DNA from: Halobacteriales archaeon QS_9_68_17
GTDB taxonomy: Archaea > Halobacteriota > Halobacteria > Halobacteriales > Natronoarchaeaceae
Assembly: GCA_003023565.1 (NCBI GenBank)
Contig: PXSA01000040.1
Location: 1-64,000 of the forward strand
Reading direction: 5' to 3'
DNA: 64,000 nucleotides
The position numbers and the translations under genes are program-made. Positions 6,070 to 57,865 of this stretch are shown here, one piece after another (positions within the stretch are counted from its first letter, which is position 1; every line of letters begins with the position of its first letter). The notes under the pieces are model-generated. The model worked only from the letters and a program-made list of their open reading frames with translations, searched no databases and was not told where the DNA came from.

Positions 6070-8301
6070 ATGGGTACCTGTATCATCTGCGGTACGCCCA
6101 CGGACGGGCGGATCTGCAGTAGCCATGAAGAAGACGTCGCTTTCGAATTCAGAGGCGACAGCGCGGACGAACTGACCCCGGGCCGCTACTACCGCGGCAC
6201 CGTCGACGGCTTCGCCGACTTCGGCGTCTTCGTCGACATCGGCGACAGCGTCACCGGCCTGCTACACAAGAGCGAACTCGACCAGCGGCTCGACAGCCTC
6301 GACTGGGACTCCGGCGACACCGTCTACGCGCAAGTGACGGACGTCCGGGACAACGGCAACGTGGACCTCGGCTGGTCCATACGTCAGTCAGAGGACAAGT
6401 TCCGCGGGTCGCTGGTCGACGACCCGAACGCCGACGCGCCGGAGGCGAGCGCGGCGGGAAATGAAGACGCGGTCGCAGAGCCCTCGGGGGGCGGTGCGGC
6501 CGCGGCGAGCGCGAGCGCGGTGACGACGGAAACGGTCGAAGGGCCGGAAGCCGTCGAGGAGTCGGAAGAGACCGCCGAGGAGCCCGAGGAGACCGAGGAG
6601 ACGGTCGACGAGACCGACCCCTCGCGTGTCGCTATCGGGACGCTCTCGGACCGCGTCGGCGACGTCGTCCGCATCGAGGGCGAGATCACCGGCGTGCGCC
6701 AGACCAGCGGCCCCACCGTCTTCGAACTCAGCGACGAAACGAGCGCCATCGAGTGCGCCGCCTTCGAGGAGGCCGGCGTCCGCGCGTACCCCGGGGTCGA
6801 CGTCAACGACTACGTTCGGCTGGAGGGCGAAGTCGAACTCCGCCGCGACGAGTTGCAGGTCGAGACGGAGTCCCTCGTCGTCCTCGACGGCGAGGACGCC
6901 GAGGCTGTCGAGGATCGGTTGACGGCCGCGATGACGGACAAAGCGCGACCCGACGAGGTCGAGACCCTCGCCGACAGCGAGGCGCTACGCGCCTCGGGCG
7001 ACCGGACGCAGTCCGGTGACGACGACCCCGCGGCGGTCGTCGAGAGCGAGGTTCGCGACGCCGCCGAGGCGATCCGCCGGGCCGTCTTCGAGGCCCGCCC
7101 CGTCGTCGTGCGTCACAGCGCCACCGCCGACGGCTACGCCGCCGGCGCGGCGATAGAGCGCGCCGTCCTGCCGCTGGTCCGCGAGGAACACGTGAAGGCC
7201 GACGCCGAGTACCACTACTTCGAGCGTCGCCCGCTCGACGGCGAAGTGTACGACATGGACGCCGCGACGAACGACGTCACCCGGATGCTGGAGGCGCGCG
7301 AGCGCCACGGCGAGCAACTGCCGCTCGTCGTCCTCGTCGACGCGGGGAGCACGCTGGAGTCCCGCGACGGCTACCGCCTGCTCGACCTCTACGGCGCGGG
7401 CCGCGTCGCCGTCGACGCCAGCCACCCCGACGAGGCCATCGTCGACGAGGTCGACACCGTCGTCAACCCCAGCCTCGCCGACGAGGGCGAGGGTGACGGC
7501 ATCACCACCACGGCACTGGCCGCGAACGTCGCCGCGAACGTCCGCGAGGACGTCCGCGACGACCTCCGCCACCTCCCCGCCGTGAGCTACTGGACGGACG
7601 CCCCCGAGCAGTACGTCGACCTCGCCGAGGCGGCGGGCTACGACGAGACTGCCGTCCGCGAGCGTCGGGAAGCCATCGCGCTGGAGGCGTACTACCAGTC
7701 CTACGACGACAAGCGCGAACTCGTCGCCGACCTACTGTTCGGCGACACCGACGCGCCCGGCGACGCCGAGTCGCTGGCCGCACACGTCAGCGAGCAGTTC
7801 CGCGAGAAGCTCGACACCGAGGTCGAGACGGCCGACCGGAACCTCTCGCTGCGCGGCGAGAACGGCATCACCTTCGCGGTGCTCGACACCGACTCGTTCA
7901 CTCACCGCTTCGACTTCCCCCCGACGACGCTGCTGCTCGACGAACTCCACCGCCGCCGCGAGGACGGTCGTAGATCGCAGCGCGATTTACGAGCCAGTCA
8001 GAACGCGGAGCGTTCTGACGACGCCGTCGGAACTCGTTCCGACGAGTCCCCGCTCGACGATGCTCGCGAGGACGCCGACGAGCCGTTCGTCACCCTCGGC
8101 GTCGGCGACGACGAGCTCCACCTCCGCAGCACCGCCCCCGTCGACGTCCGCGCGGTCGGCGAAACCGCGCGCGAACACGCCGACGAGGCCGGTATCGCCG
8201 TCGTAGGTGGCCGCGACGGTCACCTCGAGTTCCTCACGGGCGAGCGCGACGCCGTCATCGACGGCGTGGTCGCCGCCGTGGCCGAGGAACTGGGCGAGTA
8301 G
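6070..8301 (+). CDS. S1/OB-fold and DHH-family phosphoesterase (RecJ-like) with N-terminal zinc ribbon
   Basis: CIICGTPTDGRICSSH zinc ribbon, S1 domain GRYYRGTVDGFADFGVFVDIGDSVTGLLHKSEL, OB domain, DHH-like RHSATADGYAAGAAIERAV. Confidence 0.88.
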   Translation: MGTCIICGTPTDGRICSSHEEDVAFEFRGDSADELTPGRYYRGTVDGFADFGVFVDIGDSVTGLLHKSELDQRLDSLDWDSGDTVYAQVTDVRDNGNVDLGWSIRQSEDKFRGSLVDDPNADAPEASAAGNEDAVAEPSGGGAAAASASAVTTETVEGPEAVEESEETAEEPEETEETVDETDPSRVAIGTLSDRVGDVVRIEGEITGVRQTSGPTVFELSDETSAIECAAFEEAGVRAYPGVDVNDYVRLEGEVELRRDELQVETESLVVLDGEDAEAVEDRLTAAMTDKARPDEVETLADSEALRASGDRTQSGDDDPAAVVESEVRDAAEAIRRAVFEARPVVVRHSATADGYAAGAAIERAVLPLVREEHVKADAEYHYFERRPLDGEVYDMDAATNDVTRMLEARERHGEQLPLVVLVDAGSTLESRDGYRLLDLYGAGRVAVDASHPDEAIVDEVDTVVNPSLADEGEGDGITTTALAANVAANVREDVRDDLRHLPAVSYWTDAPEQYVDLAEAAGYDETAVRERREAIALEAYYQSYDDKRELVADLLFGDTDAPGDAESLAAHVSEQFREKLDTEVETADRNLSLRGENGITFAVLDTDSFTHRFDFPPTTLLLDELHRRREDGRRSQRDLRASQNAERSDDAVGTRSDESPLDDAREDADEPFVTLGVGDDELHLRSTAPVDVRAVGETAREHADEAGIAVVGGRDGHLEFLTGERDAVIDGVVAAVAEELGE

Positions 8302-8397: not shown

Positions 8398-10101
8398 ATG
8401 AGTACCGAGTCGGACGCCACGGAGTCCGAGGCGTTCAAGCGGGTCTGCGAGGAGCTGATCGACCGCATCCTCGCGGGCGAACTGGAGCGCGACGACGTCG
8501 AGTCAGCGAAGCTGGACGTCTGTTCGGAGCACTCCTCGCCGAAGGTGCCGAAGAACTCCGAGATCCTCGATCACGCGCCGCAGGAGCGCCGCGAGGAGCT
8601 CGAATCGGTGCTGCGGCGCAAACCGGTGCGGACGGCGTCGGGCGTCTCGCCCGTCGCCATCATGACCAGCCCGCACAACTGTCCCCACGGGAAGTGCCTG
8701 TACTGCCCGGGCGGTCCCGACTCGGAGTTCTCCAGTTCGCAGAGCTACACGGGCAACGAGCCGGCCGCCGCCCGCGGCGTGCAGAACGACTACGACCCGT
8801 ACGGGCAGGTCCGCCTCCGACTGGAACAGCTCCGGGAGATCGGCCACCCGGTCGACAAGGTCGAACTCATCCTGATGGGCGGGACGATGACCGCGCGGAG
8901 CCACGACTACCAGGAGTGGTTCGTCAAGCGCGCCCTGCAGGCGATGAACGAGTACGACGTGGACGGGGAGCCGGAACCGGCCGAGGGCGAGAGCTTCGCG
9001 CAGGACCCCGAGGAGTACGACTTCGAGTACGTCGAGGACGTTATCGCCCGCAACGAGACCGCGGACGTCCGCGACATCGGGACGACGTTCGAGACGAAGC
9101 CCGACTGGTGCGACCGGGAGCAGATAGACCGGATGCTTCGCCTCGGCGGGACGAAGGTCGAGGTCGGCGTCCAGACGACGTTCGAGCGTATCAACCGCGA
9201 GATGCACCGCGGCCACGGCGCGCAGGCCTCCATCGACGCGAACCGCCGCCTCCGCGATGCCGCGTTCAAGGTCGGCTTCCACATGATGCCCGGCCAGCCC
9301 GGCATGACGAAGGAGATGTGCCTGGAGGACTTCCGCCGCCTCTTCGAGGACGAGAAATGGAGGCCCGACTACCTGAAGATATACCCCACTCTCGTCGTCC
9401 GGGGCACGCGGACCTACGACATGTGGCACGATGGCGAGTACGACCCGCTCACCAACGAGGAGGCGGCCGAACTCGTCGCCGAGATCAAGTCGATGATCCC
9501 GAAGTACACGCGCCTCCAGCGCGTCCAGCGGGACATCCCCGCGGACTTCATCGACGCCGGCGTCTGGAAGTCCAACCTCCGGCAGCTCGCCAGACAGAAG
9601 ATGGCGGACCACGGCTGGACCTGCGACTGCATCCGCTGTCGCGAGGTCGGCATGAACGACCAAGCGCCGGGGGACGTGGAACTCGACGTGATGACCTACG
9701 AGGCCGCGGGCGGCACGGAGCACTTCATCAGCTACGAGGACCCGGACAACGACCTGCTGGTCGGCTTCTGCCGCCTGCGGTTCCCCGGAAACCCTCAGCG
9801 CGCGGAACTGCGGGACGCCGCGCTCGTCCGCGAACTCCACGTGTACGGGCCGATGGTCGAAGTCAGCGAGGCGCGAAGCGCCTCGGAGACATCGAGCGGC
9901 GACGAGCCGCGAGACGGCGACGAGAGCTACGACTGGCAGCACAAGGGGTACGGCCGGACACTGCTCCGGAAGGCCGAAGCGCTCGCCGCCGACGCCGGCT
10001 ACGAGACGGTGAGCGTCATCAGCGGTATCGGCGCGCGGGAGTACTACCGGGAGCAGCTGGGCTATCACCAGGACGGGCCGTACGTGAGCAAGCGGCTGTA
10101 A
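8398..10101 (+). CDS. tRNA uridine(34) 5-carboxymethylaminomethyl modification radical SAM/GNAT enzyme Elp3
   Basis: CPHGKCLYCPGGP radical SAM motif, GGTMTARSHDYQEWFVKRAL, C-terminal GNAT domain. Confidence 0.93.
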   Translation: MSTESDATESEAFKRVCEELIDRILAGELERDDVESAKLDVCSEHSSPKVPKNSEILDHAPQERREELESVLRRKPVRTASGVSPVAIMTSPHNCPHGKCLYCPGGPDSEFSSSQSYTGNEPAAARGVQNDYDPYGQVRLRLEQLREIGHPVDKVELILMGGTMTARSHDYQEWFVKRALQAMNEYDVDGEPEPAEGESFAQDPEEYDFEYVEDVIARNETADVRDIGTTFETKPDWCDREQIDRMLRLGGTKVEVGVQTTFERINREMHRGHGAQASIDANRRLRDAAFKVGFHMMPGQPGMTKEMCLEDFRRLFEDEKWRPDYLKIYPTLVVRGTRTYDMWHDGEYDPLTNEEAAELVAEIKSMIPKYTRLQRVQRDIPADFIDAGVWKSNLRQLARQKMADHGWTCDCIRCREVGMNDQAPGDVELDVMTYEAAGGTEHFISYEDPDNDLLVGFCRLRFPGNPQRAELRDAALVRELHVYGPMVEVSEARSASETSSGDEPRDGDESYDWQHKGYGRTLLRKAEALAADAGYETVSVISGIGAREYYREQLGYHQDGPYVSKRL

Positions 10102-11779: not shown

Positions 11780-13930
11780 ATGGACCAGAAGCGGGAACTG
11801 ACGAGCGTCGACCTCGCGGCGCTCGTCGGCGAACTCGGCAGTTACGAAGGGGCCAAACTCGACAAGGCCTACCTCTACGGCGACGGCTTCCTGCGGCTCA
11901 AGACCCGGGACTTCGACCGCGGGCGGGTGGAGCTACTGGTGGAGGTCGGCGACGTCAAGCGCGCGCACGTCGCGGACCCCGGGAACGTGCCGGACGCGCC
12001 CGGACGGCCGCCGAACTTCGCGATGATGCTGCGGAACCGCCTCTCGGGGGCGGACTTCGCGGGCGTCGAGCAGTTCGGCTTCGACCGGATCCTCCAGTTC
12101 CACTTCGAGCGCGAGGACGAGGACACGACGATCGTCGCGGAGCTGTTCGGGCCGGGCAACATCGCCGTGCTGGACGCCAACGACGAGGTGGTCGACTCGC
12201 TGGACACCGTCCGCCTGAAGTCCCGGACGGTCGCGCCCGGGTCGCAGTACGAGTTCCCGGACACGCGGGTGAACCCCCTCGACGTGGACTACGAGGCGTT
12301 CGCGGGGCTGATGGACGAGTCCGACACCGACATCGTCCGGACGCTGGCGACCCAGCTAAACCTCGGCGGCATCTACGCCGAGGAGGTCTGTACCCGCGCC
12401 GGCATCGAGAAGACCACCGACATCGCCGACGCCACGGACGACCAGTATCGGGCGGTCTTCGACGCGATAGAGCGCCTCCGCGCGGAACTGGAGAACGCCG
12501 AACTCGACCCGCGGGTCTACGTCGAGGGCGACCGATACGTCGACGTGACGCCGTTCCCGCTCTCTGAGTACGAGGGCCGCGAAGCGCGAAGCGCCGCGGG
12601 GAGTCGGTCGGAAACCGACGGGATCCACAGCGAGTCCTACGACACGTTCAACGCCGCGCTGGACGAGTACTTCTACGAACTCGACCGCTCCGACGACGAG
12701 GACGAGGTCGTCACCGACGACTCGCCGGACTTCGAGAACGAGATAGAGAAGAAGCGACGCATCATCGAACAGCAGGAGAGCGCCATCGAGGGGTTCGAGC
12801 GGCAGGCCGAGCAGGAGCGCGAGCGCGCGGAACTACTGTACGAGCGCTACGGACTGGTCGACGACGTGCTCTCGACGATCCAGGACGCCCGAAGCCGGGA
12901 CACGCCGTGGGACGGGATCGAGGAGCGCTTCGAGGAGGGAGCCGAGCGCGGCATCGAGGCGGCCGAGGCCGTCGTCGGCGTGAACGGCGACGAGGGGACC
13001 GTGACGGTCCGCCTCGACGGCACGGACGTCGAACTCGACGCGAGCGAGGGCGTCGAGCACAACGCCGACCGCCTCTACACCGAGGCCAAGCGCGTCGAGG
13101 AGAAAAAGGAGGGCGCGCTGGCCGCTATCGAGAACACCCGCGAGGAGTTGGAGGGAGTCAGAGAGCGCAAGCGCCAGTGGGAAGAGCGCGGCCCCGAAGA
13201 CGGGGACGAGGGCGAGGCGGACGAGGAGACCGAGAACGTCGACTGGCTCTCCCGGCCCTCGATCCCGGTTCGCCGTTCCGAGCAGTGGTTCGAGCGGTTC
13301 CGCTGGTTCTACACGAGCGACGACTTCCTCGTCATCGGCGGCCGCGACGCCGACCAGAACGAGGAACTCGTCAAGAAGTACCTCGAACCCGGCGACCTGT
13401 TCTTCCACGCGCAGGCCCACGGCGGCCCCGTCACCGTGGTCAAGGCCACCGGGCCGAGCGAGTCGGCGAAGGACGTGGCGATCCCGCAGCAGAGCAAGGA
13501 GGAGGCCGCGCGGTTCGCCGTCTCGTACTCCTCGGTGTGGAAGGACGGCCGCTTCGCCGGCGACGCGTACATGGTGACGCCGGACCAGGTGAGCAAGACG
13601 CCCGAGAGCGGCGAGTTCCTGGAGAAGGGCGGCTTCGCGATCCGCGGCGACCGAACGTACTTCCGGGACGTGGCGGTCGGCGTGGCCGTCGGTATCACCT
13701 GCGAGCCGTCGACCCGGGTCGTCGGCGGCCCGCCGTCGGCCGTTCGCGACCAGGCCGAGACGCATATCGAGGTCGAACCCGGCCAGTTCGCGCAGGCAGA
13801 TGCCGGGAAGAAGCTCTACCGCGAGTTCCGGGAGCGCTTCGCCGACACCTCCTTCGTCCGGAAGGTGGCCAGTCCCGACCGGATCCAGCACTTCCTGCCG
13901 CCGGGCGGCAGCCGGATCGAAGGGGACTGA
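11780..13930 (+). CDS. NFACT-family ribosome quality control protein RqcH
   Basis: MDQKRELTSVDLAALVGELGSYEGAKLDKAYLYGDGFLRLK...FRWFYTSDDFLVIGGRDADQNEELVKKYLEPGDLFFHAQ. Confidence 0.93.
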   Translation: MDQKRELTSVDLAALVGELGSYEGAKLDKAYLYGDGFLRLKTRDFDRGRVELLVEVGDVKRAHVADPGNVPDAPGRPPNFAMMLRNRLSGADFAGVEQFGFDRILQFHFEREDEDTTIVAELFGPGNIAVLDANDEVVDSLDTVRLKSRTVAPGSQYEFPDTRVNPLDVDYEAFAGLMDESDTDIVRTLATQLNLGGIYAEEVCTRAGIEKTTDIADATDDQYRAVFDAIERLRAELENAELDPRVYVEGDRYVDVTPFPLSEYEGREARSAAGSRSETDGIHSESYDTFNAALDEYFYELDRSDDEDEVVTDDSPDFENEIEKKRRIIEQQESAIEGFERQAEQERERAELLYERYGLVDDVLSTIQDARSRDTPWDGIEERFEEGAERGIEAAEAVVGVNGDEGTVTVRLDGTDVELDASEGVEHNADRLYTEAKRVEEKKEGALAAIENTREELEGVRERKRQWEERGPEDGDEGEADEETENVDWLSRPSIPVRRSEQWFERFRWFYTSDDFLVIGGRDADQNEELVKKYLEPGDLFFHAQAHGGPVTVVKATGPSESAKDVAIPQQSKEEAARFAVSYSSVWKDGRFAGDAYMVTPDQVSKTPESGEFLEKGGFAIRGDRTYFRDVAVGVAVGITCEPSTRVVGGPPSAVRDQAETHIEVEPGQFAQADAGKKLYREFRERFADTSFVRKVASPDRIQHFLPPGGSRIEGD

Positions 13931-14253: not shown

Positions 14254-15339
14254 ATGAGGATACAGAGCCGGAGCCCCGCCGAGGAGGGCAAGGAGCGGGT
14301 CTCGCTGGTCCCCGAGAGCCTCGATGACCTCTGGCACCTACAGTACGTGCTGGAGCCCGGCGACCTCGTCGCGGGCGACACGACACGGCGCATCCAGCGC
14401 GACGACGACAGGATGCGCGACACCGGCGGTCAGCGCGAGCACATGCACGTCACCATCGAGGTGGACACTGTCGAGTTCGCCAAGTTCGCCAACCGGCTCC
14501 GGGTCGGCGGCGAGATCATCGACGCCTCGCGCGAGGACCAGCTCGGCTTCCACCACACGGTCAACGTGGAGGAGCGCGACGAGATCACCGTCACGAAGCG
14601 GTTCAAACCGGACCAGATGGACCGCCTCGAAGAGGCCGCCGAGGCGACCGACGCGCCCGACGTCGCCATCGCGACGGTCGAAGAGGGGGAAGCCCACATC
14701 CACACCGTCGCCCAGTACGGCACCGACGAGTACGGGTCGTTCACGGGGACGACCGGCAAGGGCGAGTACGCCCGCTCCCGCGACGAGCTGTTCGGCGATC
14801 TCACCGCCGCGCTCGGCCGCATGGACGTCGACGCGGTCATCCTCGCGGGTCCCGGCTTCACGAAGCGGGACGCGCTCGACTTCATCGAGGACGAAACGCC
14901 GGCGCTGGCCGAGAAGATCACGACCGTCGACACGAGCGCCGTCGGCGACCGCGGCGTCCACGAGGTGCTCAAACGCGGCGCGGTCGAGGACGTCCAGCAG
15001 GAGACCCGCATCGCCGCGGAGGCGGAACTTATCGACGAACTCATGCACCGCATCGGCGAGGGAGCGAAGGCCGCGTACGGCCCCGACGAGGTCGCGAAGG
15101 CCGCCGACTTCGGCGCGGCGGAGACCCTGATCGTGCTCGACGAGCGCCTCCGGAAGGAGCGCGGCGCGGTGACCGAGGACGAGGAGGGCCGCGAGTGGGA
15201 CGTGGACGTGAACGAGATCGTGACGAACGTCGAACAGCAGGGGGGCGATGTCACCGTCTTCTCCTCCGACTTCGCGCCGGGCGAACAGCTCGCCAATCTG
15301 GGCGGCATCGCGGCGCTGCTGCGGTACCGGATGGAGTGA
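14254..15339 (+). CDS. pelA: mRNA surveillance protein pelota
   Basis: [48 protein letters not shown]. Confidence 0.95.
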
Positions 15340-24355: not shown

Positions 24356-27099
24356 GACCGCGCCCACTCGACCATCCGGGCGTACGCGTCGTCCGTCGCG
24401 AGCGCGTCCGCGTCGCCGACGAGCACCAGCGACCGCTTGGCCCGCGTGAGCGCCACGTTCACACGACGGTAATCCTCGAAGACCGGGCCGTCGAGGTCGC
24501 CGCTGGCGACGAACGAGACGAGTATGACCTCCTTCGAGGAGCCCTGGAACCGGTCCACCGTGTCGACGGTGACCGCGTCGGGCACCCGTCGGGATATCTC
24601 CGCGACCTGCGCGCGGAACGGCGCGATGACGCCGATATCACCCCGTTCGACGCCCGCCGCGGCGAACGCCTCGACCGTCTCCGCGACCCGCTCGGCCTCG
24701 ACGGCGTCGGTGTGGCGCGACCCGTCGCCCGGCACGTCGATCATCGTCACGGGGTCCCGCAGGTGGTCCGGGAGCGCGCTCACGTCCGCTTCCGGGAGGT
24801 CCGAGAGGCGTTGGGCCGCCACCTCGCCGGTCGCGGGCCGGAGTTGGCCGTCGTAGAACTCCCGGGAGGCGTAGGCCTGAATCCGCTGGGCCATGCGGTA
24901 CTGGCGGTCGAGCATGACGCCGGCGTTCGGGTGCTCGTCGATGAGGCGCTCGAACAGCGACTCGGTGAGGTCGTTCTCGGCGCGGACGACGGGGGGCAAC
25001 TGCTCGTGGTCGCCGACGAGGACGAACCGGTCGGCGAGGTTGATGGCGGCAAGCGTCTCCGGCTCGGTCAACTGGGCCGCCTCGTCGACGACGGCCACGT
25101 CGAACGACTGCTCGCGCATCACCCGGGACCCGCAGGTGGCCGTCGTCGCGGCGACGACCGGGGCCTCGCGGAGTTCCCGGACGCGCTCGCCCGGGTCGCC
25201 GCGCTGTTCTAAGCGCACGTCCTGCATGTCCTCGCGGACGCCGGACTCGGTGCCGACTCGGAGAACGGCCTCGAAGTCCCGGTCCCGAACCGCCTCCAGC
25301 GCGTTGTCAACCGCGCGGTTGGTGAACGCCGACAGCAGGACGCGGTCGCCCCGTTCGACGAGCGCCCGGATCGTCCGGGCGATGGTGTACGTCTTGCCCG
25401 TCCCCGGCGGCCCGTGGACCAGCGCGAACTCCTCCGCGGCGACGGCCGTCGTCACGGCATCGTTCTGCGCCGCGTTGTTGTCGATGAACGTCTCGCTCAC
25501 GTCCCCGAACGCCGGGTCAGCCCGGTCGAACAGCACGTCCTTCCGGCGCTCGCTCCCTTTCAACAGGCCGTCGTGGAGCGCCGTGAGCATGCGGTCGGCG
25601 GAGAGCTCCGAGGGGTACACGTCGAGCCGACACAGGTCCACCGGTTCGTCGGCGCTGACGACGACTGCCTCGTCGAGTCGTTCGACGCGGGCCAGTTCGG
25701 CGTGTCCGTCGACGGGGTCGCCGTCGCTGGCCAGTACCACGTCGCCCTCGCGGATCTTCGAGACGGCGTAACCGGACTCCGTCTCGCTGCCCGACGAGCG
25801 TCGCTCGTCGACGTCGTCCGTGCGTTCGGCGCGGAGTTCCCACCGGCCGCCGTCGAGTTGCCGGCGGTCGGTCGGCTCCAGGTCTACGAGCGCGCGGTCG
25901 TCGTCGGCCCGCTCCTCGCCGGTCTGTTCCCACAGTTTCGCGTACTCGCGGTGGGTCTCGCGGCGCTCCTCCTCGATGGCGCGGTAGAACCGGTCGAAGT
26001 ACTCGCGCTCCTCAGCGGGGATCGCCCGGCCGATCCGTCCGGCCTTCGACTCCTGGTCGAGGCGGCCCGAGACCACCTGACAGGTGTCCTGCTCGAAGCA
26101 GTAGTCGCAGGTGGCGTCCGCCTCGTACCCGGTCGGCACGTCCATGTCGTGTTCCATCGCCGCGATCTCGTTGCGCGTGCGGACGACGAACTTCAGCAGC
26201 CCGTCGCCGACGGAGAACTCCTTTGCCGGCGAGAGGTCGCCGGTCGCCTCGGACCGGTCGAGCGCGGAGTTCTTCGTGTACAGCAGCGTCCCCGTGTCGG
26301 CGGGGACGCCCCGCTCCTGTAACAGGAGCGCGTAGCAGGCCGCCTGGATCTTGTCGTGGAACCGCGGCTCCCGCTTCGTGTTCTTCCCGGTCTTCAGTTC
26401 GACCGGCATCCCGCGACGGACCGCGTCGGCCCGACCCTTGATGCCGAACGTCTCGCTGATGAGCGTCTGCTCGCTGCGCCACTCGCTCTCCGCGGGCGCG
26501 AACGCCCGCTCCGAGGATTCGTCGGCAGCGGCCGACCTCTCCTGGTCCGTCAGCACGCCCTGGTTCAGCCAGCTCTCGATGGCCATCGCGTTCCGGCGGA
26601 CCTCCTCCTCGACCTCCTCGCGCGTCCGCCCGAGCAGGCCCAGTTCCAGCCCCGCCTCCTCGACGCGGTCCGGGATCGACTCGTCCAGGTCGCGCCCGCG
26701 GAGCAGGTCGCCGAACACCTCGTGGACGATGGTCCCCTTGACGACCGGGTACGCAAGCGGGATCCCCGAGAGCTTGTTCAGGTAGTACATCCGGGGGCAC
26801 TGCACCCACGAGCGGACGTCGGTCACGTCGACGAGGAAGTCCGGTTCGAGCACGACGTACGAGTCGCCGGTCGTGGCGTAGCCGCCGTCGTAGTCGTCTC
26901 GCTCCGCGTCGGTGACGAGTAGCTCCATCCCCGGTTCGACGAGTTCGGCCGTCGCCGTCCACTTCCCCCACAGCGTTACCGGCACCGGCTCCGCGCCCGC
27001 CGAGAGCCGGACCGGCACCTCCGCGAGGTCGCTCTCGCCGTACTGCGTCGAGACGGTTCGAACCTCGGCCGCGCCCGCGGCGGTTCCCCGAACGTTCAC
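24352..27099 (-). CDS. Dna2-like superfamily 1 helicase with N-terminal RecB/Cas4-type nuclease domain
   Basis: SWVQCPRMYYLNKLSGIPLAYPVVKGTIVHEVFGDLL, C-X2-C pair CDYCFEQDTC, Walker [19 protein letters not shown]. Confidence 0.88.
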   Translation of the reverse strand: MNVRGTAAGAAEVRTVSTQYGESDLAEVPVRLSAGAEPVPVTLWGKWTATAELVEPGMELLVTDAERDDYDGGYATTGDSYVVLEPDFLVDVTDVRSWVQCPRMYYLNKLSGIPLAYPVVKGTIVHEVFGDLLRGRDLDESIPDRVEEAGLELGLLGRTREEVEEEVRRNAMAIESWLNQGVLTDQERSAAADESSERAFAPAESEWRSEQTLISETFGIKGRADAVRRGMPVELKTGKNTKREPRFHDKIQAACYALLLQERGVPADTGTLLYTKNSALDRSEATGDLSPAKEFSVGDGLLKFVVRTRNEIAAMEHDMDVPTGYEADATCDYCFEQDTCQVVSGRLDQESKAGRIGRAIPAEEREYFDRFYRAIEEERRETHREYAKLWEQTGEERADDDRALVDLEPTDRRQLDGGRWELRAERTDDVDERRSSGSETESGYAVSKIREGDVVLASDGDPVDGHAELARVERLDEAVVVSADEPVDLCRLDVYPSELSADRMLTALHDGLLKGSERRKDVLFDRADPAFGDVSETFIDNNAAQNDAVTTAVAAEEFALVHGPPGTGKTYTIARTIRALVERGDRVLLSAFTNRAVDNALEAVRDRDFEAVLRVGTESGVREDMQDVRLEQRGDPGERVRELREAPVVAATTATCGSRVMREQSFDVAVVDEAAQLTEPETLAAINLADRFVLVGDHEQLPPVVRAENDLTESLFERLIDEHPNAGVMLDRQYRMAQRIQAYASREFYDGQLRPATGEVAAQRLSDLPEADVSALPDHLRDPVTMIDVPGDGSRHTDAVEAERVAETVEAFAAAGVERGDIGVIAPFRAQVAEISRRVPDAVTVDTVDRFQGSSKEVILVSFVASGDLDGPVFEDYRRVNVALTRAKRSLVLVGDADALATDDAYARMVEWARS

Positions 27100-40524: not shown

Positions 40525-41697
40525 ATGGAGCTATCCGACGAGCAACGCGCGGTCCGAGACGTGGTGCGGGAGTTCGCGGAGGAGGAGATCCGCCCGCTGG
40601 CGCGCGAAGCGGACGAGACGCAGTCGTTCCCCGAGGAAGCGTGGGACGGCCTCGCCGACCTCGATCTCACCGGCCTGACGGTTCCCGAGGAGTACGGCGG
40701 CTACGACGCCGACCGGCTGACCTACAGCGTGGTGAACGAGCAGGTCGCCTACGGCATGCTCTCGGTCGCCACCGCGCTCTCGGTCCACTGCCTCGCGACC
40801 TCCTGTATCGCGACGTTCGGGAGCGAGGACCAGAAGGCGCGCTGGCTGCCGGAGATGGTCGACGGCCGCCCGGTCGGCGCGTTCGCGCTCTCGGAACCCG
40901 AGGCCGGATCGAACCCGGCCGAGATGACCACCGAGGCTCGCAGAGAGGGCGACGAGTACGTCATCGACGGCGACAAGCAGTGGATCACGAACGGCGAGCG
41001 CGCGGGCGTCGTCATCGTCTTCGCCAAGACCGACCGCGACGACCCGAACAGCGTCACGCAGTTCCTCGTCCCGAAAGACGCCGCCGAGGAACCCTCGGCG
41101 AGCAGCCGGACTGCGTCCGGCGACGCCGACGGACCGCAGGTCGGCAAGAAGGAGGACAAACTCGGCCTGCGCGCCAGCGACACCACGTCGCTCAGCTTCG
41201 ACGGCGTGCGGATCCCCGTCGAGAACCGCCTGACTGAGGAGGGGAAGGGGATGAGCGCCGCTCTCTCGATCCTCACCGGCGGCCGGATCGGCATTGCATC
41301 GCAGGCCGTCGGTCTCGCCCAGTCGGCGCTCGACGAGGCGGTCGACTACGCCGGCGAGCGCGAGCAGTTCGGCAAGCCGGTCGGCGACATCCAGACGATC
41401 CGGCACAAACTCGCCGACATGGGGACGCAGGTGCGGGCGAGCCGCCTGCTGACGCGGGACGCCGCCGCCCGCGAGGACCGCGGCGACGACGTGCGCATGG
41501 CTGCGAGCATGGCGAAGTACTTCGCCAGCGAGGCCGCGATGGACGTGACCAACGAGGCGGTCCAGATCCACGGCGGCTACGGCTACGTCACCGAGGGCGA
41601 CGTCGAGCGGCTCTACCGCGACGCGAAGATCACCACTATCTACGAGGGCACCAGCGAGGTCCAGAAGACGGTGATCGCCCGCGAAATGCTGGAGTAG
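40525..41697 (+). CDS. Acyl-CoA dehydrogenase
   Basis: MELSDEQRAVRDVVREFAEEEIRPLAREADE...ALSEPEAGSNPAEM...IHGGYGYVTEGDVERLYRDAKITTIYEGTSEVQ. Confidence 0.95.
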   Translation: MELSDEQRAVRDVVREFAEEEIRPLAREADETQSFPEEAWDGLADLDLTGLTVPEEYGGYDADRLTYSVVNEQVAYGMLSVATALSVHCLATSCIATFGSEDQKARWLPEMVDGRPVGAFALSEPEAGSNPAEMTTEARREGDEYVIDGDKQWITNGERAGVVIVFAKTDRDDPNSVTQFLVPKDAAEEPSASSRTASGDADGPQVGKKEDKLGLRASDTTSLSFDGVRIPVENRLTEEGKGMSAALSILTGGRIGIASQAVGLAQSALDEAVDYAGEREQFGKPVGDIQTIRHKLADMGTQVRASRLLTRDAAAREDRGDDVRMAASMAKYFASEAAMDVTNEAVQIHGGYGYVTEGDVERLYRDAKITTIYEGTSEVQKTVIAREMLE

Positions 41698-53893: not shown

Positions 53894-54231
53894 GGGTTGA
53901 AGTCGAACCGCGGCGTGTCTTCGAGCGACGGGCCGTCGTCGACCTCGCGCCCGTCCTCGTACTTGACGTAGTTCAGGTAGAAGGTCCGTCCGCAGCCGTC
54001 GTCAGAGTCGGGCGAGCCGATCTCATCGGACGACGTCCGACCGCCCGGAACGCTCTGCGTTCCGATGCAGACGAACTCGATGCCGTCGGCGTCCTCGTAC
54101 TCGCCGGTCGTCGCGGCGTACTCCCGGTCGCCCTGTGGCTCTTTCGTGACGGACTTGTCCCGCAGGTACGGGTCCCGGTCGATGGAGACGACGGCGTCGC
54201 AGTACGGACAGGTGTACGTGACGGAAACCAC
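53890..54231 (-). CDS. Zinc-ribbon-containing haloarchaeal hypothetical protein
   Basis: MVSVTYTCPYCDAVVSIDRDPYLRDKSVTKEPQGDREYAATTGEYEDADGIEFVCIGT...GCGRTFYLNYVKY. Confidence 0.7.
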   Translation of the reverse strand: MVSVTYTCPYCDAVVSIDRDPYLRDKSVTKEPQGDREYAATTGEYEDADGIEFVCIGTQSVPGGRTSSDEIGSPDSDDGCGRTFYLNYVKYEDGREVDDGPSLEDTPRFDFNP

Positions 54232-56713: not shown

Positions 56714-57865
56714 TCAGGCGACCTCGACCCACTCCCCGGACTCATCGCTCCGTGCGATGGCGTCCAACACCTCCTGAGCGGCGTAGCCCTCCTCGAAACC
56801 GGGCGTGAACTCGCCGTCGTTCTCTCCGGCGGTTGCGTCGCTTTCGCTTCGGGACGCCGTCGGCGTCTCGCCTGCCACCGCCGAGAGGAACTCGTAGTTC
56901 TCGTGGACGAACGTGTGCTCCCAGCCGATGACGTGGCCCGGCGGCCACCAGTGGTCGACGTAGGGGTCGTTCTCCTCGGTGACGAGGACCGTCTCGTAGC
57001 CGCGGTCGCCCTCCCGGTGGAGTTCGAGTTCGTTCAGTCGCTCCAGCGAGAACCGGAGGCTCCCCTCGGAGCCGTGGATCCCGATCCGGTTGTCGTTCTT
57101 GTGGCCGGTCGCGAACCGCGAGGCCTCGAACGTCCCCATCGCGCCGTTCTCGAACTCCGCCTGCGCGCTGTAGGCGTCGTCGACGGTCACCGGGCGTGTC
57201 TCGTTTTCCCCCTCGACGGGCCGCTCGTCGACGAACGTCTCCAGGTGGCCGGACACGCGCTCGATATCGCCGATGAGAAAGCGGGCGAGGTCGACCGTGT
57301 GCGACCCGAGGTCGCCGAGCGCGCCGCTGCCGGCCATCCCCTCGTCGTTGCGCCACGACCACGGTGCGTCGGGGTCGACGAGCCAGTCCTGCAGGTAGGT
57401 GCCGCGGAAGTGCCGTATCTCGCCGAGTTCGCCGGCGTCGATCAGGTTCCTCGCGTACCGGATCGCGGGGACGAAACGGTAGTTGAACGCACAGCCGGCG
57501 GGAACGCCGGCGTCGCGGGCGGCGTCGCGCATCTCGCGGGCCGACTCCAGCGTCGGCGCGAGCGGTTTCTCGCAGAACACGGGCGTGCCGGTGTCGAGCG
57601 CGGCGATAGCGGGTTCGGCGTGGACGTGGTTCGGCCCGAGGTTGTAGAAGACGTCGACCTCCTCGATCACGTCGCGCCAGTCCGTCGCCGTCCGGGAGAA
57701 GCCGAGGCGGTCCGCGGCGTCCGCGAGGGCGTCCTCGTCGCGGCCGACGATCACGTCGCGCTCGACGTCCGGCGCGTCCGGGAAGAACATCGGCAGGCGC
57801 GCCAGCGCGTTCGCGTGGGCCTTGCCCATGAACCGATACCCGAGTACGCCGACCTGTAGGCTCAT
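56714..57865 (-). CDS. Gfo/Idh/MocA family oxidoreductase
   Basis: MSLQVGVLGYRFMGKAHANALARL...YNLGPNHVHAEPAIAALDTGTPVFCEKPLAPTLESAREM. Confidence 0.92.
   Translation of the reverse strand: MSLQVGVLGYRFMGKAHANALARLPMFFPDAPDVERDVIVGRDEDALADAADRLGFSRTATDWRDVIEEVDVFYNLGPNHVHAEPAIAALDTGTPVFCEKPLAPTLESAREMRDAARDAGVPAGCAFNYRFVPAIRYARNLIDAGELGEIRHFRGTYLQDWLVDPDAPWSWRNDEGMAGSGALGDLGSHTVDLARFLIGDIERVSGHLETFVDERPVEGENETRPVTVDDAYSAQAEFENGAMGTFEASRFATGHKNDNRIGIHGSEGSLRFSLERLNELELHREGDRGYETVLVTEENDPYVDHWWPPGHVIGWEHTFVHENYEFLSAVAGETPTASRSESDATAGENDGEFTPGFEEGYAAQEVLDAIARSDESGEWVEVA

Follow-up and report, generated by a model that had tools for sequence, protein, structure and literature searches.

What is a tight run of three hairpins doing inside the coding sequence of a protein gene? 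The question is raised by a 64-kb stretch of haloarchaeal DNA (hereafter the window), for which an earlier note had described three hairpins at 7969-8043 within the coding sequence of a DHH protein. A check of the sequence found all three as described, and the ORF at 6070-8301 and its frame agree with their placement in the gene; the third hairpin has an arm of 9 bp, one pair more than had been given. The gene and its hairpins are:

6070-8301, forward strand: host gene for an S1 - OB-fold - DHH protein of 743 aa (ORF, Pfam and fold match)
7969-7991, forward strand: hairpin 1, CGTAGATCGC-AGC-GCGATTTACG, with one G-T pair; first hairpin of putative unit 1 (sequence and fold)
7997-8019, forward strand: hairpin 2 (the B hairpin), GTCAGAACGC-GGA-GCGTTCTGAC, a 10-bp perfect stem; second hairpin of putative unit 1
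8025-8044, forward strand: hairpin 3, CGTCGGAAC-TC-GTTCCGACG, 9 bp; first hairpin of putative unit 2

Pfam places S1 and OB domains in the host protein, and its fold matches 5yh1, the closest solved structure, as well as structures of RecJ; the protein is a relative of Pyrococcus PF0399. Across the hairpin segment the ORF reads ...RSQRDLRASQNAERSDDAVGTRSDES.... In DNA of such high GC content, a lone hairpin of at least 8 bp is often a chance product: the window holds 56, against about 32 in Markov-3 simulations. Three hairpins within 85 bp were seen at one place in the window, and likewise only once among 60 simulated windows of 64 kb. The segment folds more stably than its own shuffles (z of -3.7 as DNA and -4.0 as RNA), and an Rfam search of the window gave no match. 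Because hairpin density is only modestly above background, inserts defined by comparison between genomes were used as evidence instead.

Orthologs were aligned from four congeners and some 24 further haloarchaea: every one of them lacks a 105-bp segment spanning the hairpins, and its flanks are contiguous (loci L009-L012). The ortholog of the closest relative, with 95% protein identity, has an empty site with contiguous flanks. Since orthologs lack the 105 bp and join the flanks directly, the hairpins represent an in-frame, 35-codon insertion of the source lineage:

7960-8064, forward strand: in-frame insertion of 105 bp (35 codons), absent from all orthologs examined
7957-7966, forward strand: CGCGAGGACG, found again at 8065-8074, at the opposite edge of the insert (read from the sequence)

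The suggestion that this was a tolerated, possibly strain-specific polar-linker insertion is supported: it is absent from all four congeners and from all other haloarchaeal orthologs examined, and the alignment revealed no conservation of the linker across genera. An AlphaFold model places the insert as a linker between a helix and a strand, in part extending the helix and for the most part at low confidence. The 75-bp extent originally proposed covers the hairpins and falls short of the inserted unit. The two copies of CGCGAGGACG lie 108 bp apart, compared with an alignment gap of 105 bp, so by this reading of the sequence they are apparently not a plain target duplication of the insert. Its first two hairpins, with the spacer AGCCAG and the second stem TCAGAACGC, have the layout of an insert in PurA and of the left end of an IS605-type transposon, in which the stem of hairpin 2 recurs; hairpin 3 resembles a hairpin copy in a gene that we take to be cheA. 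Given these likenesses, the 105 bp most likely comprise two tandem two-hairpin units of about 51 and 54 bp, the last hairpin having decayed.

To regard this as a single insertion is correct as far as it goes, and too narrow: it is one of many related elements in the genome and in haloarchaea. Inserts were found by aligning the window to a congener (G001), and the comparison was extended to about 180 kb of aligned sequence of the source genome (42 contigs, 89% complete); stretches outside the window were chosen around hairpin matches, which inflates the insert density there. The aligned sequence yielded about 20 inserts of 42-110 bp, all of them coding and in frame, with lengths clustering at 45, 51 and 54 bp. 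Those in the window, besides the 105-bp insertion, are as follows (the A type is defined below):

6973-7017, forward strand: second insert in the S1-OB-DHH gene, A-type, 45 bp, encoding DSEALRASGDRTQSG, absent in congeners G001 and G004; hairpins at 6978-6996 and 7001-7017, covariance-model match at 6975-7020 (E 3e-6)
9864-9914, forward strand: A-type insert in the adjoining Elp3 gene, 51 bp, encoding SEARSASETSSGDEPRD (covariance model E 5e-15)
12579-12623, forward strand: in-frame insert with hairpins, 45 bp, encoding REARSAAGSRSETDG
25767-25811, reverse strand: in-frame insert, 45 bp, CGACGAGC-GAC-GCTCGTCG and a decayed second hairpin
41076-41120, forward strand: in-frame insert, 45 bp, CGCCGAGG-AAC-CCTCGGCG and GCCGGAC-TGC-GTCCGGC
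54004-54060, reverse strand: about 42 bp not present in G001, split over two gaps of the alignment (54004-54036, 54052-54060), with hairpin GGAACGC-AGA-GCGTTCC and less sharply defined ends
56823-56873, reverse strand (judged from the peptide): insert, 51 bp, hairpin GACGCC-GAC-GGCGTC

Most inserts are made of short perfect hairpins, typically two per unit of 45-54 bp; some have only one clear hairpin. A stem of at least 7 bp is present in 75% of them and in 3.8% of random segments, and two hairpins (at least 7 and at least 6 bp) in 40% as opposed to 0.15%. Inserts at unrelated loci also resemble one another, with a mean best score of 34 compared with 20 for random segments. Their hosts include PurA and Elp3, and presumably CheA and SufB, which were recognised by sequence; the functions are unrelated. 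Inserts are located in linkers or turns, the one in PurA at a turn that is absent from the solved structure 4m0g. Congener G001 carries only a couple of similar inserts, and G004, where alignable, also lacks those of the window.

Three further features are of note. The window segment 54473-54775, missing in G001, contains a group of hairpins whose loops are of the GAA/TTCG type, among them TGCAAACGC-GAA-GCGTTTGCA, CGAAACGGC-TTC-GCCGTTTCG and CGGAGCGGC-GAA-GCCGCTCCG. At the position matching 54294 of the window, G001 carries an insertion of 88 bp bounded by long inverted sequences (GTAGAAATTGAA...TTTCAATTTCTAC); it has the look of a MITE in its own right. An ORF of 1117 aa near 14936 of another stretch (L080; G000 C20:80000-99999) contains an intein/homing-endonuclease-like stretch (FLRGYYLGDGSISGG).

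The A type has the consensus AG-CGAGGCGC-NNN-GCGCCTCG-GAnnnnnCGA-GCGGY-NNN-RCCGC-GAG. The pattern CGAGGCGC-NNN-GCGCCTCG, followed by the spacer and GCGGY-NNN-RCCGC, matches in 172 of 295 haloarchaeal genomes, and the reversed-pattern control in 0; that of the B hairpin matches in 121 of the 295, its control in none, and named records with a B hairpin are nearly all haloarchaea. Related elements are found in single-contig haloarchaeal genomes as well. When a covariance model was built from other genomes alone, six of the inserts known from genome comparison reached significant E-values; the model gives at least 33 copies in the source genome versus at least 6-12 in congeners, these being lower bounds with 61 candidates scored per genome. 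Two-sided (compensatory) changes occur at 8 of 13 stem pairs, in both A-type stems, a number attained by 0 of 500 shuffles, and slid pairings are near zero; the alignment used was fitted to the covariance model and favours it. Hairpin 2 also covaries in a MAFFT alignment (A2) that was not fitted to the model and whose copies had been collected with a pattern constraining hairpin 1 alone.

One copy is nested. The 99-bp insert at 9691 of locus L078 is made up of two elements: an A-like one of 51 bp sits within the second hairpin of an A element of 48 bp, and rejoining the two halves of the interrupted element restores the consensus. Insertion, retention in frame, recurrence throughout the genome and the order, covariation of the stems, the bias in frame described below and this nested copy are direct observations. 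They point, with a probability of roughly 75%, to a family of very small, non-autonomous mobile elements that insert into haloarchaeal genes. A classical MITE was considered as a model and rejected, as the units have two separate hairpins, no terminal inverted repeats and no fixed-length target-site duplication. Insert junctions had no target duplication of fixed length, only slides of 0-5 nt.

Such elements may spread as follows. Units of about 45-54 bp, typically two tandem hairpins with loops of 3-5 nt, insert into genes; they probably travel as single-stranded DNA in folded form, with the shape of the hairpins as the recognition signal, and the movement leaves no fixed-length target duplication. 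A copy landing in a permissive loop, on the right strand and in the right frame, would be read as an open, acidic, hydrophilic peptide, and the protein would survive and the copy persist. Other outcomes of insertion would be purged. A unit of two hairpins, the absence of target duplication and the link to IS605 suggest transposition of single-stranded DNA by an HUH enzyme in trans, and the leading guess for the mobilising enzyme is an IS200/IS605-type HUH transposase or a relative. This step is considered less likely than not, since no Y1 transposase (PF01797) was found in the source genome, which is 89% complete, and copy number is unrelated to Y1. A Y1 transposase as the driver was itself rejected on the latter ground: across 295 genomes, A copy number showed no association with Y1 presence (1.49 versus 1.67 copies, p 0.55).

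The same link to IS605 could be read in another way, namely that the units are decayed ends of IS605-type transposons, deleted internally as in the PATEs of Haloquadratum, and constitute no separate family. In an IS605-type transposon (L290, 1300-1360, reverse strand), the left end lies upstream of tnpA and is a tandem pair of hairpins, each with a 3-nt loop; the nearer hairpin is 104 bp from the matched part of tnpA, and the second stem is the B stem. Of 150 loci with B hairpins, 13 have TnpA/TnpB nearby, and terminal-only copies are among the PATEs (PMC3119063). Against this, 0 of 37 A-type copies in the loci examined are near a transposase, A copies do not track Y1, and no full pairing of left and right ends could be established for any unit. 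This origin is on balance unlikely.

Palindromes may also be made locally, when template switching or snap-back synthesis inverts nearby sequence and no mobile element is involved. Stem sequences do differ much between inserts, and this too would account for the lack of a fixed target duplication. Such an origin predicts inverted matches to the flanks, and there is no excess of them: the longest match to an insert's own flanks averages 6.4 nt compared with 7.0 nt for random flanks, on which ground snap-back and template switching are disfavoured. The near-identical units at unrelated loci and across the haloarchaeal order, and the nested copy, further make local synthesis improbable.

The family of mobile elements must also account for a strong bias in reading frame. 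For 56 A copies the coding frame could be assigned with confidence, and 53 of these use one and the same strand and frame, giving SEAxxAS(D/E)xxSGxxPR(D/E). It is the only net-acidic frame (-1.1 versus +1.9 to +4.7 in the others); each of the others is free of stop codons in anywhere from half to all of the A copies. Selection in the acidic proteomes of halophiles probably keeps the acidic frame, and a directional insertion mechanism may be a source of the bias. The acidic, hydrophilic peptides and the placement in linkers or turns would equally suit ordinary flexible linkers evolved for function, such as salt adaptation, in which case the palindromes would simply follow from repeated Ser/Ala/Glu/Arg codons in DNA of high GC content. 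Codon usage would not explain, however, that the stems covary in the manner of base pairs while slid pairings score near zero, that such stems are rare in random coding segments of the source genome, that reversed-pattern controls are absent, or that non-coding copies exist, although A copies are found mostly in coding sequence; we regard functional linkers as very improbable. The strong RNA fold and a genome in 42 contigs at 89% completeness might suggest that the hairpins work as mRNA structures, that the inserts are spliced out or otherwise processed, or that they are an artefact of assembly. All of these are hardly credible: the inserts are in frame and their lengths divisible by three, which implies translation; other genomes, single-contig ones included, contain the same elements; and the window has no Rfam match. 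The earlier idea of mRNA processing accordingly finds no support: insert lengths in multiples of three and open frames indicate translation rather than removal.

Protein-coding palindromes are known from bacteria. Rickettsia palindromic elements (RPEs), of about 150 bp, lie in frame within unrelated protein genes, and the host protein is apparently tolerant of them (PMC10969869). As in the description of RPEs, the haloarchaeal inserts are palindromic, in frame within an ORF and absent from orthologs, with similar copies in unrelated genes (here those of PurA, Elp3, the DHH protein and others). They differ from these bacterial elements of about 150 bp in their units of 45-54 bp, their two hairpins and their strongly preferred acidic frame. 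REP elements are small palindromes, often dimers, some of which lie inside ORFs and encode 20-30 aa, and those of the CGTC type are without a dedicated transposase (PMC3733652). The haloarchaeal elements are likewise small, often made of two hairpins and found inside ORFs, and as with the CGTC type no dedicated transposase was found for them. Unlike REP/RAYT systems, they have neither a GTAG nor a CGTC tag, the sequence preceding hairpin 1 being variable in 23 aligned A copies; they had no dedicated Y1 (RAYT) transposase in the incomplete source genome; and A copies were found mostly in coding sequence, whereas REPs are mostly intergenic.

The PATEs of Haloquadratum are transposase-free elements with near-terminal palindromes, no terminal inverted repeats and no target duplication (PMC3119063). 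They share with the present elements the haloarchaeal host, the near-terminal palindromes, and the lack of target duplication and of a transposase gene. The B hairpin recurs in the left end of an IS605-type transposon; no such partner was found for the A type in the loci examined. In-frame coding inserts, by contrast, are not described for PATEs in the sections consulted (PMC3119063). The haloarchaeal hairpin elements are best explained as an archaeal counterpart of RPEs and intragenic REPs, retained where they add an acidic disordered loop, and partly related to PATEs.

Protein-coding palindromic elements have so far been mostly bacterial, centred on Rickettsia, with scattered intragenic REPs in addition, and no earlier report of protein-coding palindromes in archaea was found in the open-licence literature. 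In haloarchaea, mobile DNA appears to write new protein segments in the form of short acidic polar loops. The elements explain many of the odd SEARSASD/QNAERSD-type inserts in haloarchaeal proteins, which should not be taken for functional linkers or regulatory mRNA hairpins. Their order-wide occurrence in archaea means that two questions can be put to the test in organisms amenable to genetics: by what means such elements move, and how frequently new polypeptide segments come from mobile DNA. A bolder proposal, to which we give somewhat less than even odds, is that these protein-embedded mobile palindromes are haloarchaea's own, are moved by non-Y1 machinery and, through their acidic frame, serve as pre-adapted donors of disordered, salt-compatible loops to core enzymes across the order.

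Some A-type inserts occupy the same protein site in different genomes. Near position 1500 of L266, L296 and L298, which come from three genomes of different genera, they lie at one site in a protein (context MTYYNLIYQYG) that is probably TrpA. Inheritance, gene transfer or a preferred site may underlie this sharing, and a similar sharing of site is seen among the A-type inserts of L285, L299, L301 and L312.
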